From positions 1-14,153 of the forward strand of contig JAISJA010000079.1 in NCBI GenBank assembly GCA_031261765.1: a stretch of DNA of 14,153 bases, given 5' to 3'. Positions 3,411 through 14,117 of this stretch are shown one piece after another; the stretch's first letter is position 1; the number at the start of each line of letters is the position of its first letter. This stretch comes from Coriobacteriales bacterium (GTDB lineage: Bacteria; Actinomycetota; Coriobacteriia; Coriobacteriales; UBA8131). The notes under the pieces were generated by a model, which did no database searches, was not told where the DNA came from, and worked only from the letters and a program-made list of their open reading frames with translations. A program made the position numbers and the translations under genes.

Positions 3411-5417
3411 ATGGACCTCAAAAACAAGATCATATACATCGTGTCAGCCGTAACGGTGGTTATAGCGATGACAGCCATGATAATAATATACGCGCTTTTG
3501 CTGCAGCCGCTTCAAGCAGGCGGAACAACGCTTTCTACGAAGAGCCTTGAAGAGGCGACGGAAGCTCCCGTTGTGGCGCAAACAGACGAAGGCCAAACGT
3601 TGTACACACGCCCTGCAGATGGCGAAGAGTATGCTCCCGAGCAAGTCGTTATAACATATGGAGCCAACGAAGACGAGACAGCTCTTTTCACGGCTATCGA
3701 AGCCGCTATAAACGACGCCTCTTCCGGCGCGCAGGGAGGCGCGCAAGTGCAAGCGCTCACACCCAATTCTACCACGCAAAAATCGGCGCTCGTAAGGCTT
3801 CCCCAAGACGTCTCCATAGAAAAAGCTTCTGCTATCATGCTAGCAATACCACAAGTTAGCACTGCGGAGCCAAACCATATAGCCTACGCGACACAAGGTT
3901 ATAGTGTCAATGATCCATATGCCGCAACCACCTATTGGCCTATCGCAGACAATGGACAAGGCAAACAGCATGCTCCTGCCGATACCAGCAGCTTCGTTAG
4001 CACAAACATGCACGACAACGGGTCACAATGGTGGCTTGCAAGTGTTCATGCGTTTGACGCGTGGAACACCGTCAGAACGGATGGCCAGGTGGAAGTAGCC
4101 GTGCTTGACACTGGCGTTCGTGCCACACACTCAGACCTGCAGAATAACATAGACAAAACAAACGCCAAGAGTTTTGTATCAGGCCAAAACGACGCCATAA
4201 ACGATCAAAACGGGCATGGTACGCACGTGGCCGGCATAATAGCCGCCGAAGCAAACAACAATAATATGTTCGCAGGCGTATCGTATAACGCGAAAGTGCT
4301 TCCGATACAAGTACTTGACAAGGACGCCAAAGGATACATAAGCGATATAGCCGCGGGCCTGGACTACGTTACAGGCCTAAAGACAAGCGGAGTGCTTGGA
4401 AACCTTCGCGTTGTGTCCATGAGCCTGGGAGCCGGAGCTGATACAACTTTGCATAACGCCGTGAGAAACGCCACGGACGCAGGATTGTTATGTGTCGCGG
4501 CCGTTGGTAACGACGGCGACTCGCGTCTTGTCTATCCTGGCGCCTACGACGAAAGCGTATGCGTGGGAGCCACGGACTCAACTAACGGAAGGGCCTGGTG
4601 CTGGCAAGAGAACACGATCACCCACACAAAAACGCAGTTCTATTTCAGCAACCATAACCAGTGCGTGGATATCGCGGCGCCCGGCGCCGTCATTTTAAGC
4701 ACGTACAACAACTCTGACAGAGGACTTTGTTGGGACTCCGGGACGTCAATGGCTACTCCCATAGTGGCAGGAACGGCGGCTTTGATGTTCGCAGAGAATC
4801 CTAGCCTGACCGTAAGCCAGGCAAAATCGGTCTTATACGATACCGCGACAGACTTGGGCACGACCGGCAGGGATGACTTCTTTGGGCACGGCCTTGTTAA
4901 CGCCGCCGCGGCCGTTGCCACGCCGGGCGCGTCCATTATAACTTCTATCGTTCCAGGCGACGCCTCTTTAACGGTGGCGTTCAACGCCCCGGCATCAAAC
5001 GGGGCATCTGCAATCAACGGATACAAGATAGAATACAGCGCAGACGCAACTACGTGGACAACGGCCTCGAATACGGTGGCCTCTTCTCCGTATATGATAA
5101 GCGGCCTTGCAAACGGCATACAATATTATGTGCGGATAAGCGCCGGCAACTTAATGGGATACGGGCCTTCAACTACGACGGAGAGCACATATGCGCCGGT
5201 TGCGCCATCCGCCAAGCCCGGTGCGCCCTCCATAGAGTCTGTGTCATGCGGCAACGGGTCCCTTGTGGTGTCATTTGGTGCTCCGCAAACCGGCGAAGGC
5301 ATAGACACTTACAAGATAGAATACAGCGCAGACGCAACTACGTGGACAACGGCCTCGAATACGGTGGCCTCTTCTCCATATACGATATATGGCCTTGCGA
5401 ACGGAACGGCATATTAG
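3411..5417 (+). CDS. Secreted subtilisin-like serine protease (S8), N-terminal part ending at an in-frame TAG
   Basis: This 668-residue product holds the catalytic part of a large surface protease. Residues about 7-35 are a hydrophobic signal or anchor segment after a short basic N-terminus. A propeptide-like region (about 70-165) follows, then the peptidase S8 domain. The triad is visible as D233 in VAVLDTGV, H269 in NGHGTHVAG and S446 in SGTSMATP, with the oxyanion-hole Asn (N367) in AAVGND. One complete FN3 domain (about 506-596) and most of a second (from about 604) come next. The reading frame stops at TAG (5415-5417), in the NGTAYY motif that recurs in most of the FN3 units, where a Tyr codon is expected. 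The same frame stays open to 8435, so the intact gene would be 3411-8435, about 1674 residues. The ATG start has AAGGAAAGG at 3397-3405. The protein as encoded could be secreted and active but would lack the C-terminal anchor. Confidence 0.92.
   Translation: MDLKNKIIYIVSAVTVVIAMTAMIIIYALLLQPLQAGGTTLSTKSLEEATEAPVVAQTDEGQTLYTRPADGEEYAPEQVVITYGANEDETALFTAIEAAINDASSGAQGGAQVQALTPNSTTQKSALVRLPQDVSIEKASAIMLAIPQVSTAEPNHIAYATQGYSVNDPYAATTYWPIADNGQGKQHAPADTSSFVSTNMHDNGSQWWLASVHAFDAWNTVRTDGQVEVAVLDTGVRATHSDLQNNIDKTNAKSFVSGQNDAINDQNGHGTHVAGIIAAEANNNNMFAGVSYNAKVLPIQVLDKDAKGYISDIAAGLDYVTGLKTSGVLGNLRVVSMSLGAGADTTLHNAVRNATDAGLLCVAAVGNDGDSRLVYPGAYDESVCVGATDSTNGRAWCWQENTITHTKTQFYFSNHNQCVDIAAPGAVILSTYNNSDRGLCWDSGTSMATPIVAGTAALMFAENPSLTVSQAKSVLYDTATDLGTTGRDDFFGHGLVNAAAAVATPGASIITSIVPGDASLTVAFNAPASNGASAINGYKIEYSADATTWTTASNTVASSPYMISGLANGIQYYVRISAGNLMGYGPSTTTESTYAPVAPSAKPGAPSIESVSCGNGSLVVSFGAPQTGEGIDTYKIEYSADATTWTTASNTVASSPYTIYGLANGTAY
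5022..5377 (+). repeat. 68-bp identical direct repeat in FN3 units 1 and 2
   Basis: Bases 5022-5089 and 5310-5377 are identical over 68 bp, including all third codon positions, and are spaced by exactly 288 bp (96 codons). Other FN3 units in the array differ widely at the DNA level. This marks a recent duplication or gene conversion between the first two units. Further identity continues beyond a single mismatch in each copy. Confidence 0.9.
5415..5417 (+). other. In-frame amber codon interrupting the protease gene
   Basis: The codon lies in the FN3 motif NGTAY-Y-VR. The equivalent codon is TAC or TAT (Tyr) in the other units, for example TAT TAC at the end of unit 3, so a single C-to-G change explains the TAG. 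No insertion or deletion is involved, and the reading frame on both sides continues the same domain. TAG is used as a normal terminator in this window (ddl, and the glutamate-synthase-like gene), so general reassignment is unlikely. Confidence 0.9.
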
Positions 5418-5423
5418 GTACGG

Positions 5424-8400
5424 GTGTCGGCCCATATCGCAGGCGGTTGGGGAGCGCCGGCAAATAGCGTCGAGACCTATGCTCCGTCCGTTGCGCCGGA
5501 CGCCCCTTCTATAGAGTCGGTGTCGCCCGGCGACTCGTCGCTTGCCGTCTCGTTTATACCTCCCGCACAAGACGGCGGCGCTGCCATTGACGCATATTGT
5601 GTGGAATACAGTACAAACGGGGTTTCGTGGACAAACGCCACGACAAACGCGGCGTCTTCTCCATATACGATATATGGCCTTACAAACGGCACGGCATATT
5701 ACGTTCGCGTATGCGCGCACAACGTAAACGGCAACGGGCCTTATGCAGCGACTGGCGCCGCTACGGCCCCCATCGCCCCGCGCACGGTGCCGTCCTCTCC
5801 TACGATAAACAATGTGGACGTGGGCGATTCATCCCTGGTTGTCTTCTTCTTGGCTCCAATTAAAAGCGGCGGTGCCGTCGTAGACGCCTACGAAGTGGAT
5901 TACAGTCCAGACGGTAGTACGTGGACGACCGCGTCTGACAACGTTGTGTCTTCTCCATATACCATAGATGGTCTTACGAACGGCACGGCATATTACGTTC
6001 GTGCACGCGCGCACAACGCCGTGGGGTGGAGCCAGTATGCCACAAGCTCGGACGCATACATACCGCTTGACGTACCGGGCGCTCCTACCATAAACAACGT
6101 TGTTCCCGGCAATGGCACGCTAACCCTTTATTTCTCATCGCCATCACAAAACGGCGGTGCGGACATTGACAAATACAGGATAGGTTATCGCGCGACAGAC
6201 AACGACACGTGGACATATTGCCAGTCAGAGCTAATGCTATATGGAGCGGTCAATATAACAGACCTGGCGAACGGCACGGCATACTATGTTTGTATCGCCG
6301 CGCACAACGCTAAAGGATATGGGCCTGCGGCCAGCACTAGCTATACGAACAGCGCGTACACTCCGTTAACGGTACCCGATGCGCCGTCTATAGTGTCTGT
6401 CATGCAGCAGGCGGAATCGCTGGTGCTTTGTTTTAACCCACCGGCGTTTAACGGTGGCGCGGACATAGACGCCTATATGGTGGAATACAGCACAGACGCC
6501 GTTACGTGGCAGGCATGCATGGATATCGTTACGCAATCTCCCTATACGCTAAACGGGCCCGTAAGCGGCGCGTCGTATTACGTACGCGTCTTTGCGCACA
6601 ACCAGGCCGGCCTTGGTGCGGCCGCGCAAACCCAATCTGCGTATCAATTGCAGGATTCCGCTCAAACAAACGTTCCAGAGCCGCCGGGAATAACCTCGGT
6701 AGTTCCGGCAGACAACGCCCTTAATGTCTATTTCCAGACCGTCCAGGCAAATGACGCATATAGGATAGAGTACAGCGCGACGGGACGGGACGGTGATTGG
6801 CAGGAAGCCACAGCCAATGCAGTCTCTTCTCCGTACGCCATAGACGGTCTTACGAATGGTACGGCGTATTACGTTCGCGTACGCGCGCACAACCAGTATG
6901 GATGGGGCCAGGCTGCGACGACACAGGAACGCTATGTTCCAAGCACGCGCCCCGATCCGCCTATGGGCATATCGGTTGCTTGTGGCAATTCGCTGCTATC
7001 TGTCATGTTCACCGCGCCTGCGTATGATGGAAATGCCGCTGTCGATAAATACAGGATCGAGTACAGCGTGTCTTTGGATGGTCCTTGGATGTCGTGTGCG
7101 ACCGAGCCCGTGAGCGCCGGCGCGGCCATGAACATACTGAACCTTGCGAACGGTACGCCATACTACATACGCGTGTGTGCGCATAACCTAAACGGTTACG
7201 GCGAATACGCCACCACACAAGACGCGTATACGCCGTCTACGGTACCGGGAGCGCCGATTATTAGTAACGTGCGACCGGGCGATCGGCACATCGCGGTTTC
7301 GTTTTCTGGTGCCGAGCTTAACGGCGGCGCGCAGATAGACGCATATGGTTTGGAATACAGCGTTGCCGACACCAACGAATGGCATATAGCCAGCATCACG
7401 ATAGACCCATCGCAAGGCGAATATGCCATAGACGGCCTTACGAACGGAACTGCATACTACATACGCATGGCTGCCCACAACCAAAACGGGTGGGGCGACA
7501 TAGCCAAGGACAACGTAACGTACACACCGTTCACGGCGCCTACTCCGCCGACCATAACCAAAGTGGTTCCCGGTGATAATTCGCTTATCGTATATTACAC
7601 CGCGCCCGAAAACGACGGCGGAAGCCCCATAGACCACTATGATATCGAGTACGCGGAAGCCAATACGCTGGCGCCTGGGAGCCTTACGGCTTCAGTCGAC
7701 GCCAGTTCTATTGACCATATATCTGCGTCAGACCTTGAGTTCGCGCGCAGGGTGGTAGAAGCCGTCGCACATTCCAATACGGCGCACTCGTTGGCGACAC
7801 CTCTTGGTGCAGACGAACCTATATGGAAAGTCGCCGCGTCTAACATTCCCATAACGGACCGCGAAGGAAGCTATGAGATAACGGGGCTTACAGGCGGAGT
7901 CCCGTATCTTGTGCGGCTTGTCGCGTACAACGAAGGTGGTGCCTTTTCGTATAACAACGCAGACGTTGACGCCGGCAACACGCCTTACGTACCCATAGTT
8001 CCACCGCTTGGCTCTACGCCAAGCCCGCCACTTGGCGAAGGCGAACAGCCCGAAAACCAACCCGCGGACGTAGTGTACGATACAGGCACTTCTTATTATG
8101 CCAACAACAACGATCTTAGAGAATCGGACGACCTTTATGATGACGAGGTTGGATTGTACTATAGCCACATCAAACGGGACTACGACAAATCGTCTGGTGC
8201 CGGTGCAGACAACGATGCCGACGCTACAGGCTCAAATGCGAACAGGCACTTGCCGTATATGGGCAACGGCACAGGTGACATCGATGTTGACGCAATGTTG
8301 TCTGACGCGGGACTTATGGTATATGGCTGGGCTGCAATAGTCATAGCGGCTTCAGTCTTTATCATTGTCGGTATAATCGTAGCGATAAAGGTGCGCTACC

Positions 8401-8435
8401 GCAAGCGCTGGTACACGTCTTTGACCAGCAAGTAA
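5424..8435 (+). CDS. C-terminal part of the interrupted subtilase: FN3 repeats and membrane anchor
   Basis: This is the continuation, in the same frame, of the protease gene after the TAG at 5415. A GTG at 5424 could serve as a start, but only a weak purine stretch precedes it and the sequence begins in the middle of FN3 unit 2. It therefore looks like the second half of a broken gene, or the part made by stop-codon readthrough, rather than a separate gene. It encodes the end of unit 2, eight further FN3 units, and a proline- then Asp/Asn-rich linker (about residues 860-955 of this part). A transmembrane helix (about 966-990, AAIVIAASVFIIVGIIVAIK) and a basic tail (VRYRKRW) typical of a C-terminal anchor with the tail inside follow. 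No LPxTG sortase signal is present. Made alone it would have no signal peptide. Confidence 0.8.
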   Translation: MSAHIAGGWGAPANSVETYAPSVAPDAPSIESVSPGDSSLAVSFIPPAQDGGAAIDAYCVEYSTNGVSWTNATTNAASSPYTIYGLTNGTAYYVRVCAHNVNGNGPYAATGAATAPIAPRTVPSSPTINNVDVGDSSLVVFFLAPIKSGGAVVDAYEVDYSPDGSTWTTASDNVVSSPYTIDGLTNGTAYYVRARAHNAVGWSQYATSSDAYIPLDVPGAPTINNVVPGNGTLTLYFSSPSQNGGADIDKYRIGYRATDNDTWTYCQSELMLYGAVNITDLANGTAYYVCIAAHNAKGYGPAASTSYTNSAYTPLTVPDAPSIVSVMQQAESLVLCFNPPAFNGGADIDAYMVEYSTDAVTWQACMDIVTQSPYTLNGPVSGASYYVRVFAHNQAGLGAAAQTQSAYQLQDSAQTNVPEPPGITSVVPADNALNVYFQTVQANDAYRIEYSATGRDGDWQEATANAVSSPYAIDGLTNGTAYYVRVRAHNQYGWGQAATTQERYVPSTRPDPPMGISVACGNSLLSVMFTAPAYDGNAAVDKYRIEYSVSLDGPWMSCATEPVSAGAAMNILNLANGTPYYIRVCAHNLNGYGEYATTQDAYTPSTVPGAPIISNVRPGDRHIAVSFSGAELNGGAQIDAYGLEYSVADTNEWHIASITIDPSQGEYAIDGLTNGTAYYIRMAAHNQNGWGDIAKDNVTYTPFTAPTPPTITKVVPGDNSLIVYYTAPENDGGSPIDHYDIEYAEANTLAPGSLTASVDASSIDHISASDLEFARRVVEAVAHSNTAHSLATPLGADEPIWKVAASNIPITDREGSYEITGLTGGVPYLVRLVAYNEGGAFSYNNADVDAGNTPYVPIVPPLGSTPSPPLGEGEQPENQPADVVYDTGTSYYANNNDLRESDDLYDDEVGLYYSHIKRDYDKSSGAGADNDADATGSNANRHLPYMGNGTGDIDVDAMLSDAGLMVYGWAAIVIAASVFIIVGIIVAIKVRYRKRWYTSLTSK

Positions 8436-9395: not shown

Positions 9396-9989
9396 ATGCA
9401 AACATACGAACAGATAGCGCGCATTACAAAACCAAAAGGCCTTGACGGCAAGATAGCCGTCCGGGCCTTTTCAGATTTATACGTTGGACAAGACGTATGG
9501 ATAGTGCCACCTACGTCACGCGGCATACGCCACACCACCATAGAGGATATAAGCGATTATGCTATCAAGCTAGCAGGTGTTGACGATAGGAGCTCAGCAT
9601 ACGAGCTTCAAGGTAAATATCTGCTAGCTGCTTGTTCAGACGTGCGCCATGGGGACGGTTCTTGCGGCGTACAGACTGCATCATCCTGCGAGCCGCCAAG
9701 TGCAACCTCGTCATCCTGCGAGCCGCAAAGCGGCTGCGCAGGATCCCTTTTCGTACGCACGCCGCAAGAACCGTCCCCATGGCACGCGACCGTACGACCG
9801 GCAACCCGCGTATATGACAAGAACGAATATGTTGGTGACATAGATTACGTGGAGCAGACCCCGGCGCACCCTATGCTCATATTAAAAGACGGGGCTATGA
9901 TTCCATACGTGGACGACTTCATAGTAAAGACCACGGAAGACGCCATATACATGGACCTGCCAAGCGGGCTATTGGAGATCAATAAATGA
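9396..9989 (+). CDS. rimM: 16S rRNA processing factor RimM interrupted in frame by a palindromic repeat element
   Basis: RimM binds S19 and assists late 30S maturation. The N-terminal RimM domain is present (YEQIARITKPKGLDGKIAVRA, residues 4-24, through LQGKYLLA, 71-78). The C-terminal PRC-barrel domain is recognisable from about RVYDKNEYVGDIDYVEQ (138-153) through AMIPYVDDFIVK (167-178). Between them, residues about 84-130 come from a 138-bp inverted-repeat element (9646-9783) and are rich in Ser, Cys and Pro (SSCEPPSAT, SSCEPQSGC). They replace the start of the PRC domain, where relatives have a GEFY-type segment leading to the first barrel strand. The frame is kept (138 = 3 x 46), so a full-length protein can be made, but its fold and function may be altered. 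No clear Shine-Dalgarno precedes the ATG. The stop overlaps the trmD start (ATGA). Confidence 0.9.
   Translation: MQTYEQIARITKPKGLDGKIAVRAFSDLYVGQDVWIVPPTSRGIRHTTIEDISDYAIKLAGVDDRSSAYELQGKYLLAACSDVRHGDGSCGVQTASSCEPPSATSSSCEPQSGCAGSLFVRTPQEPSPWHATVRPATRVYDKNEYVGDIDYVEQTPAHPMLILKDGAMIPYVDDFIVKTTEDAIYMDLPSGLLEINK
9646..9783. mobile_element. REP/MITE-like palindromic element inserted in rimM
   Basis: Bases 9646-9670 and 9759-9783 form a perfect 25-bp inverted repeat whose outer part reads CATGGGGACGGTTCTTGCGG. Inside lie one full and one half copy of a second palindrome: TCATCCTGCGAGCCGC occurs at 9681-9696 and again at 9711-9726, where it completes a hairpin. The GGGGACGGTTCT core resembles, from memory, sequences found near REP-associated transposases. 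No transposase is encoded. The length is a multiple of three and no stop occurs in the rimM frame. Confidence 0.85.
9711..9746 (+). repeat. TCATYC-hairpin repeat, copy within rimM
   Basis: A 14-bp stem with one bulged G and an AAA loop runs from ATCCTGCG...CGCAGGAT inward to CCGC-AAA-GCGG. The same hairpin, with compensatory changes, occurs at 12511-12546. In the rimM mRNA it would sit inside the larger 25-bp stem. Confidence 0.85.
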
Positions 9990-10741
9990 TAATAGACACG
10001 CTTTCGGTGTTTCCTCAGATGTTCGACGGCCCTATGGGAATGTCCATGATAGGACGCGCGAGGAAAGCCGGCATCTTACGGTTTAATGCGTACGACCTTC
10101 GCGATTGGACCCATGACAGGCATCGTACGACAGACGACGAGCCATATGGCGGCGGCGCCGGGCAGTTAATGAAAGTCGAGCCGGTGTATGAGGCGCTTGA
10201 TGATTTAATGGGCCTTACCTCCAAGGGCGACGGCGTGGGCAACGCCGACATGGGCCACGCTTGCGACGATGGCGAAACCGGCGACGCGCGCCCCGTGCGT
10301 CCACAAGTCATATTCTTCGCTCCGCACGGCAAGCGCTTCGACCAACAAATGGCCGTGGAGTTATCAAGACAAGAGCACCTCATAATGGTGTGCGGTCACT
10401 ATGAGGGTTTTGACGAGCGCGTTTATGAACGCGCGGACCATATAATCTCTATAGGTGATTACGTGGTCACCGGCGGCGAGCTTGCGGCCATGGTCGTGAC
10501 CGACGCGGTATGTAGGCTCATTCCCGGCGTGCTTGGAAACGAACAGTCAAGCGTGGACGAGTCGTTCTCGGCCGAAAGCGACAACCTTTTGGAGTATCCG
10601 CAGTACACGCGTCCGGCGGAATACCGTGGCATGAAGGTGCCTGACGTGTTGCTGTCCGGCGACCACGCGGCCGTAGATAAGTGGCGCCACGAACAAGCGC
10701 TTAAGCGCACGGCCGAGCTGCGCCCGGACCTTTTGCGCTAA
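9986..10741 (+). CDS. trmD: tRNA (guanine-37-N1)-methyltransferase TrmD
   Basis: SPOUT-family enzyme that makes m1G37 next to the anticodon of tRNAs reading CNN/CCN-type codons, preventing +1 frameshifts; it is essential in most bacteria. Family motifs are clear: YGGGAGQLMK (54-63), MVCGHYEGFDERV (134-146), ISIGDYVVTGGELA (154-167) in the trefoil knot that binds S-adenosylmethionine, and LLEYPQYTRP (201-210). Compared with standard TrmD, about 20 extra polar residues (DGVGNADMGHACDDGETGD) lie between the QLMKVEP segment and the strand VRPQVIFFAPHGK. The ATG overlaps the rimM stop, and GGAG (9974-9977) precedes it. It is the last gene of the rpsP cluster; a hairpin repeat follows. Confidence 0.96.
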   Translation: MIIDTLSVFPQMFDGPMGMSMIGRARKAGILRFNAYDLRDWTHDRHRTTDDEPYGGGAGQLMKVEPVYEALDDLMGLTSKGDGVGNADMGHACDDGETGDARPVRPQVIFFAPHGKRFDQQMAVELSRQEHLIMVCGHYEGFDERVYERADHIISIGDYVVTGGELAAMVVTDAVCRLIPGVLGNEQSSVDESFSAESDNLLEYPQYTRPAEYRGMKVPDVLLSGDHAAVDKWRHEQALKRTAELRPDLLR

Positions 10742-12484: not shown

Positions 12485-12510
12485 CAAGTCCATACGGTTA
12501 TTCGTGATTG

Positions 12511-12546
12511 TCATTCTGCGAGTCGCGAAGCGACTGCGCAGAATCC
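12511..12546 (+). repeat. TCATYC-hairpin repeat, copy after the glutamate-synthase-like gene
   Basis: Same 14-bp stem with a bulged G and three-base loop as at 9711-9746. The two copies differ at five positions: two complete base pairs (T-A versus C-G) and one loop base. A truncated right half of a related repeat (CCCGGAATCCAGG, about 12552-12564) follows at once. Confidence 0.85.
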
Positions 12547-13568: not shown

Positions 13569-13723
13569 GTCATTCCCGCCGTCATTCCCGCGAAGGCGGG
13601 AACGGGAATCCAGCCCTTTGTACGGTACGCCATTCCCGTTGAGTACCCCGTCATTCCCGCGAAAGCGGGAATCCAGCCTCTTGCACAGCCCGTCATTCCC
13701 GCGAAAGCGGGAATCCAGCCCTT
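13569..13723 (+). repeat. Cluster of GTCATTCCCGC palindromic repeats, left of the GIY-YIG gene
   Basis: Complete copies of GTCATTCCCGCGAAAGCGGG followed by AATCCAGCC lie at about 13650-13682 and 13692-13723. A variant with an internal CGGGAA duplication is at 13581-13619, and truncated left halves are at 13569-13580 and 13629-13639. Each full unit folds as ATTCCCGC-GAAA-GCGGGAAT. Translated in one frame the copies read SFPRKRESS, which is only a by-product of the repeat. All copies point the same way. Confidence 0.9.
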
Positions 13724-13738
13724 TATATTAGGAGAGTT

Positions 13739-14035
13739 ATGAAGAACCCATGCGTGTATATTTTGGCAAGCAAGTTTTTAGGGACTTTATATATTGGAGT
13801 TACAAGCGATTTGCCAAAACGCATATGGAAGCACAAGAACGATACGAACGAAGGTTTCACAAAACAGTATAGCGTCCATGATCTGGTTTATTATGAAATG
13901 CATGGTTCTATGGAAGAAGCCATATTGCGCGAAAAGCAAATGAAAAAATGGAACAGGAAATGGAAGGTACGCTTAATTAGCGAAAATAACCCGAAATGGG
14001 AGGATTTATACGATGATATTAAAGAACGATATTAA
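13739..14035 (+). CDS. Small GIY-YIG superfamily nuclease
   Basis: A 98-aa single-domain GIY-YIG protein of the short, widespread type related to the UvrC N-terminal nuclease domain. The signature strands are CVYILAS (5-11) and GTLYIGVTSDLPKRIWKHKN (15-34), with the conserved Arg at R28. They are followed by EGFTKQYSVHDLVYYE (38-53) and EEAILREKQMKKW (59-71), which contains the conserved metal-binding Glu region, and the family end NPKWEDLYDDI. The cellular role of these stand-alone proteins is unclear. ATG 13739 follows GGAGAG (13731-13736). The stop TAA overlaps the right-hand repeat by two bases. Codons are more A/T-rich than in glyQ, for example AAA, GAA and TTA, which suggests recent acquisition. 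Confidence 0.9.
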   Translation: MKNPCVYILASKFLGTLYIGVTSDLPKRIWKHKNDTNEGFTKQYSVHDLVYYEMHGSMEEAILREKQMKKWNRKWKVRLISENNPKWEDLYDDIKERY

Positions 14036-14117
14036 AGGGCTGGATTCCCGCAAAGGGCTGGATTCCCGCCTTCGCGGGAATGACGGCGGAGCTCGCGGGA
14101 ATGACGGCGGGAATGAC
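14034..14117 (-). repeat. Palindromic repeats right of the GIY-YIG gene, inverted orientation
   Basis: AAAGGGCTGGATTCCCGC occurs twice in perfect tandem (14034-14051, 14052-14069). The second copy runs into CTTCGCGGGAATGAC (14070-14084), completing a full hairpin unit. Two shorter right ends (CGCGGGAATGAC near 14094-14105 and GGCGGGAATGAC at 14106-14117) follow. These are reverse complements of the copies on the left side. Confidence 0.88.

Follow-up and report, generated by a model that had tools for sequence, protein, structure and literature searches.

The rimM locus and its palindromic element

The window (the whole stretch of DNA analysed here, 14,153 nucleotides) carries on its + strand, in this order, rpsP, a gene for a KH protein, rimM, trmD, a glutamate-synthase-like gene and glyQ, as assigned from open reading frames and Pfam matches. 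The nearest relatives found for its TrmD come from Coriobacteriia MAGs (loci L001-L011, 60-66% identity), several of which are presumably from termite guts, judging by their isolate names. The window glyQ is 83-90% identical to glyQ at eight loci, several of them in the family of genome G311, a sign, short of proof, that the window belongs to this family. The family comprises 33 genomes, including G001-G006, G008, G300, G338, G374 and G388, with G031 falling outside it. The TrmD of the window (9986-10741) has 251 aa and is about 30 residues longer than its nearest relative (L001, 663 nt matched); the extra stretch is acidic and glycine-rich, lies near residues 80-105 and has no palindrome reported in it. 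The features of rimM and of the element that it contains are as follows.

9396-9989, + strand: rimM, encoding 197 aa, in frame through the insert (open reading frame; Pfam RimM and PRC_RimM)
9411-9629, + strand: RimM N-terminal domain, residues 6-78 (Pfam PF01782; pLDDT >90)
9641-9788, no strand: whole palindromic element with imperfect outer pairs (fold; 44-nt imperfect inverted repeat)
9646-9670, + strand: left arm, 25 bp, with the core GGGGACGGTTCTT at 9651-9663 (inverted repeat)
9681-9700, + strand: incomplete copy of the nested repeat (95% identical, as a direct repeat, to 9711-9730)
9709-9746, + strand: REP-like hairpin with a CGTC tag, nested in the element, with an AAA loop and a stem of some 14 bp that has one bulge (sequence)
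9759-9783, - strand: right arm, complementary to the left arm throughout, with its core at 9766-9778 (inverted repeat)
9816-9971, + strand: PRC barrel, residues 141-192 (Pfam PF24986; modelled domain begins near residue 127)
12509-12546, + strand: intergenic second copy of the nested repeat (direct repeat; paired base changes in the stem)

The sequence-only reading of this DNA had placed a palindrome at 9646-9783 in frame inside rimM, with nested hairpins and a very stable hairpin in the middle of the mRNA, and in these respects it was right. The gene is one open frame, the arms are perfect over 25 bp, the loop holds both the CGTC-tagged hairpin (9709-9746) and its partial copy (9681-9700), and the RNA of the element is predicted to fold at -96.3 kcal/mol (z -10.26). 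Over 300 mononucleotide shuffles of rimM, inverted repeats reached 12 bp at most, against the 25 bp observed. The intergenic copy of the nested repeat at 12509 begins with TGTC, against CGTC in the hairpin within rimM, and the translated insert holds four cysteines.

Membership of the RimM family was assigned from the N-terminal RimM domain, the PRC barrel and the adjoining trmD; the NCBIfam 16S_RimM model matches the N-domain alone, with a score under the model cut-off. The same reading had the element replacing the first part of the PRC barrel, and a truncated barrel was rejected, as alignment and predicted structure show a complete domain with the insert in the interdomain linker. Residues 91-130 have pLDDT block means of 40-54, and the insert is predicted to be disordered, between two well-folded domains. 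A second look at the matches reported by Foldseek gave rmsd values of 7 to 14 for full-length RimM, which are large because a loose linker joins the two domains. The length of this linker varies in related genomes and is long in G311 and G300.

Linker palindromes in other RimMs and dispersal of the arm core

The RimM DNA set comprised 43 full-length genes including that of the window, the RimM of G388 being left out because a contig end cuts the gene. A check on whether relatives lack the insert found the window element in 0 of the 42 other genes, and a perfect inverted repeat longer than 13 bp occurs in two of the 43, namely the window (25 bp) and G374 (42 bp). The longest linker palindrome in L001-L006 and L008 was 10 bp. 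In G374, whose genome gave one RimM match, the 42-bp palindrome also lies in the interdomain linker (locus L245), differs from that of the window and has a core, GAGGGACGGGGTTGG, with 410 copies in this genome (at most one mismatch) versus 0 control hits. A third case is P0002, known as protein only: this RimM, encoded on a JGI metagenome contig, has a linker that reads HGDGSC..RTVPM, which is the translation of the two arms; the string GDGS was found only in the window RimM and P0002 among the 120 RimM-like matches listed of 143 above threshold.

P0002 and G374 carry different elements in RimM and fall within one clade of six rows (100/100), with four insert-free relatives alongside. The window pairs weakly with G311 (93/57), whose RimM linker is long and not palindromic, and the group of window, G311 and G335 has support of 95/92; the position of the window within the RimM tree is unsure because of its long branch. 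None of 200 bootstrap trees recovered a single origin of the RimM inserts, and no fewer than two changes are required by the starred branches.

The arm core is a dispersed repeat in several of these genomes. Exact copies of GGGGACGGTTCTT number 45 in G031, 23 in G388, 10 in G237, 9 in G003, 8 in G374 and 7 in G125, and at least one exact copy occurs in 42 of the 396 genomes of the class. By arithmetic, chance alone predicts about 0.06 occurrences of a given 13-mer per 2 Mb, so that roughly two dozen of the genomes would hold one, and single hits, being near chance, were therefore not used as signal. With at most one mismatch permitted, the count in G388 rises to 124, versus 4 for the reversed control. 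Many copies form facing pairs with short inverted flanks round each core, as in the window, and many lie at contig ends in the relatives. The whole element was absent from the 33 genomes of the G311 family, bar 30 nt at 90% in one, and the nested repeat was absent from all 33.

Y1_Tnp genes were present in 14 of 30 chosen genomes, at 29 loci, and in five of the 29 (L116, L117, L126, L128 and, as a close variant, L123) the core flanks the gene on both sides. At L116 it lies in 23-bp arms, at L117 the arms carry it minus one G, and at L126 and L128 it is exact or has one mismatch on either side; L119 has core copies near the gene and a 12-bp arm. The remaining Y1_Tnp loci are flanked by other arms, as is the single Y1_Tnp gene of G374, which has a different arm. 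No Y1_Tnp match was found in G388 or G003, both of which have in-frame inserts, or in G103, G147, G395 and G065, and the gene is present in G004, G101 and G010, genomes with few or no cores. The window itself has no Y1/HUH transposase gene. The transposase link is not genome-wide.

In-frame repeats in other proteins

Reading frames were examined through 45 facing pairs for the first core and through 41 distinct clusters in G374 for the second, taking the copies listed first in the tables, not a random draw; a Pfam scan of 40 frames assigned 28 to a family and left 12 without a match, and frames shorter than 180 aa in the first set or 210 aa in the second were not counted. In all, 19 internal in-frame inserts were listed, the window RimM and P0002 included. 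For the first core, internal inserts came from 5 of 16 facing pairs in G388, 1 of 3 in G003 and 1 of 21 in G031, with 0 of 5 in G374, G065, G300 and G297 together, and for the second core from 10 of the 41 G374 clusters.

In 14 of the 19, family matches lie either side of the repeat or across it. This holds for the window RimM, RecQ (L085), Maf (L087), NAD(P)H-hydrate dehydratase (L089), a NifK-like nitrogenase component 1 protein (L084), TsaB-RimI-TsaD (L091), an MFS protein (L218), DinG (L211), UvrD with two inserts (L296), AroE-AroK (L300), fumarase (L320), GlyQ-GlyS (L322) and PriA (L323). The upstream part of L091, presumably TsaB, rests partly on one of three TsaD stretches. The other 5 of the 19 have a Pfam match on one side only; the other side was assigned by alignment in P0002 and the L245 RimM, and in a radical SAM protein (L301), a Pyr_redox protein (L306) and TatD (L326) by motifs typical of these families. 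When Maf, RecQ, the NifK-like protein and the dehydratase are aligned with solved proteins by phmmer, the alignment breaks at the repeat and restarts beyond it.

Repeats at protein ends were left out of the 19 because many may fall outside the true coding part (L086, L090, L216, L310 in either frame, the second repeats of L084 and L091, and L171, L182, L208, L213, L215, L219, L312 and L313), as were L298, a DnaX with a family match upstream only, and L092, which has no Pfam match. The two UvrD inserts of G374 belong to different repeat families, and one (L296:1708-1818) lies within the helicase domain and the other (about 2288-2401) ahead of the tudor domain. In a DinG-like helicase of G388 (L211:240-4118), a run of several repeat-derived peptides separates the first helicase motif from the remainder.

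The left arm is read in the G/R-D-G register in 17 of the 19 inserts, the exceptions being DinG and AroE-AroK. With labels assigned by hand, this gives p 6e-7 against a null of one in three and 4e-4 against one in two, the latter being the fairer null because a flanking stop can block a frame. Clusters are also poor in stops in some genomes: the number of open frames out of six was 4.52 in G374 (n=29) versus 2.26 in shuffles and 2.25 in 150 random segments, 4.75 in G388 (n=16) versus 3.46 and 3.33 in G003 (n=3) versus 2.54 (sd 0.56), contrasts that are inflated because copies within a family are not independent. G031 shows no excess (3.05, n=21, versus 3.04).

Origin of the insert and comparison with known repeats

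The rimM insert is very probably a miniature palindromic mobile element with terminal arms of the Y1/HUH type and a loop like a CGTC REP, inserted in the RimM linker and tolerated in frame. The small element would most likely have been carried into rimM by a Y1/HUH transposase working in trans on its arms, and, as we infer the order of nesting, a CGTC REP-like repeat may have entered its loop or come along with it. The peptide would then loop out, presumably as a neutral addition with neither domain disturbed, and out-of-frame insertions would be lost by selection; this one may have been kept because it adds a whole number of codons with no stop among them and sits in a flexible linker. As similar repeats lie in frame in many housekeeping proteins of relatives, DNA parasites seem to double as protein-coding inserts in these bacteria. 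The wider proposal, that palindromes related to HUH terminal repeats are coding-compatible parasites throughout this Coriobacteriia family, stop-poor in the richest genomes, read in one hydrophilic register, spread over a broad housekeeping proteome and recurrent in the RimM linker (three lineages), is put forward tentatively, with the balance lying a little on the side of doubt.

Recruitment of the insert, with the mid-gene hairpin tuning translation of rimM-trmD or the cysteine-rich peptide altering RimM activity, seems improbable. It would make sense of the very stable predicted hairpin, the four cysteines, the linker being hit in three lineages and the favoured register (17 of 19 inserts), but the three RimM inserts are of unlike sequence and unequal length, inserts are missing from most other RimMs and the inserted loop is predicted to be disordered, and the entry of repeats into many unrelated proteins fits tolerance better than a common function. 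Slightly less probable again is an artefact or chimera in which a metagenome assembler joined the palindrome into rimM, since the frame is kept on either side, every residue of the RimM domains is present and palindrome-derived residues occur at the same linker in two other assemblies; such an error would be in keeping with a source that resembles a draft contig and with repeats that break contigs in relatives and have many copies at contig ends. Ordinary low-complexity growth of a linker that is variable in the group and sometimes long (G311, G300), palindromic by chance and with no mobile repeat, seems the least probable of the three, given arms of 25 bp where shuffles gave at most 12, perfect inverted repeats above 13 bp only in the window and G374 of 43 RimM genes, and an arm core that is a repeat in other genomes.

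The preferred reading, a tolerated mobile element, had been likened at the outset to the RPEs of Rickettsia. Rickettsia is the best-known source of protein-coding palindromes, and we know of no enzyme identified as mobilising them there. The likeness stands in kind, as a palindromic coding insert in frame that recurs in genes and genomes of the class; identity with an RPE family is not claimed. Palindromes inserted in frame in Rickettsia genes are described in the available part of PMC10969869, and the elements discussed here are like RPEs in being palindromes of about this size, in frame in unrelated genes and read as extra peptide (PMC10969869, PMC3733652, in the portions accessible). They differ from RPEs, on the same portions, in that the host belongs to another phylum and the sequence to another class, and in that the window arms resemble transposase-flanking repeats and a second repeat is nested in the loop.

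Several other classes are treated in PMC3733652, of which the following holds for the portion available. The TIRs of TIRtrons are the terminal inverted repeats that lie next to TIRYT tyrosine transposases (PMC3733652). The window element is like TIRtron TIRs in having inverted arms with a GGGG-A-type core, a core that in some relatives lies by Y1/HUH genes and is dispersed as dimers and clusters; the window core GGGGACGG departs at one base from the TIRtron motif GGGGWSAS, which is given for some TIRs only (PMC3733652). As in CGTC REPs, for which intragenic copies are known, the nested hairpin at 9709-9746 has an unpaired CGTC before the stem-loop; unlike them, it has a stem of about 14 bp with a bulge versus 8-9 bp, a loop of 3 versus 4-5, and sits within another element (PMC3733652). 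REPINs and GTAG REPs with RAYT share the facing palindrome pairs, high copy number and association with an HUH transposase, but the window element ends without GTAG and is intragenic, not extragenic (PMC3733652). Intragenic copies are reported there for GTAG and CGTC repeats and not for TIR repeats (PMC3733652).

In the open-access literature we found no paper on palindromic elements in Coriobacteriia or on RAYT with REPIN in Actinobacteria; TIRYT returned two papers, PMC6006769 among them, and a search with the arm sequence returned only an unrelated paper, the arm being absent from the accessible text of PMC3733652. Intragenic REPs are already published; what appears to be new is the class of element, the clade of its host, the nesting and the recurrence at the RimM site. 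If the wider proposal is true, the spread of palindromes such as the Rickettsia RPEs inside genes would become testable with an identifiable transposase. The same kind of insertion in another phylum, with repeats like the ends of tyrosine-transposase elements, would allow the insertion mechanism and protein tolerance to be studied together. The inserts would also form a natural map of sites that tolerate about 15 to 60 extra residues in RecQ, UvrD, PriA, GlyRS, RimM and others.

Two further features of the window may be recorded. A long frame at 3411-8435, which we take to be of subtilisin plus fibronectin-III type, contains repeats of about 290 bp, and an in-frame TAG at 5415-5417 divides it into two frames of the same register. 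A small gene for a GIY-YIG nuclease (13739-14035) lies between inverted clusters of TTCCCGC..GCGGGAA palindromes (13569-13725 and 14033-14117), several of which are CGTC-tagged. CGTC REPs are without a dedicated transposase according to the available part of PMC3733652, and GIY-YIG nucleases are for this reason possible partners of such repeats; no paper joining GIY-YIG and 'repetitive extragenic palindromic' was found in the open-access literature. Palindromes of this type are absent from the flanks of the GIY-YIG relatives in L339 and L340, the L340 gene starting at a contig end; the relatives in L337 (G408) and L338 (G006) are, as in the window, flanked by palindromes of the TTCCCGC..GCGGGAA type.
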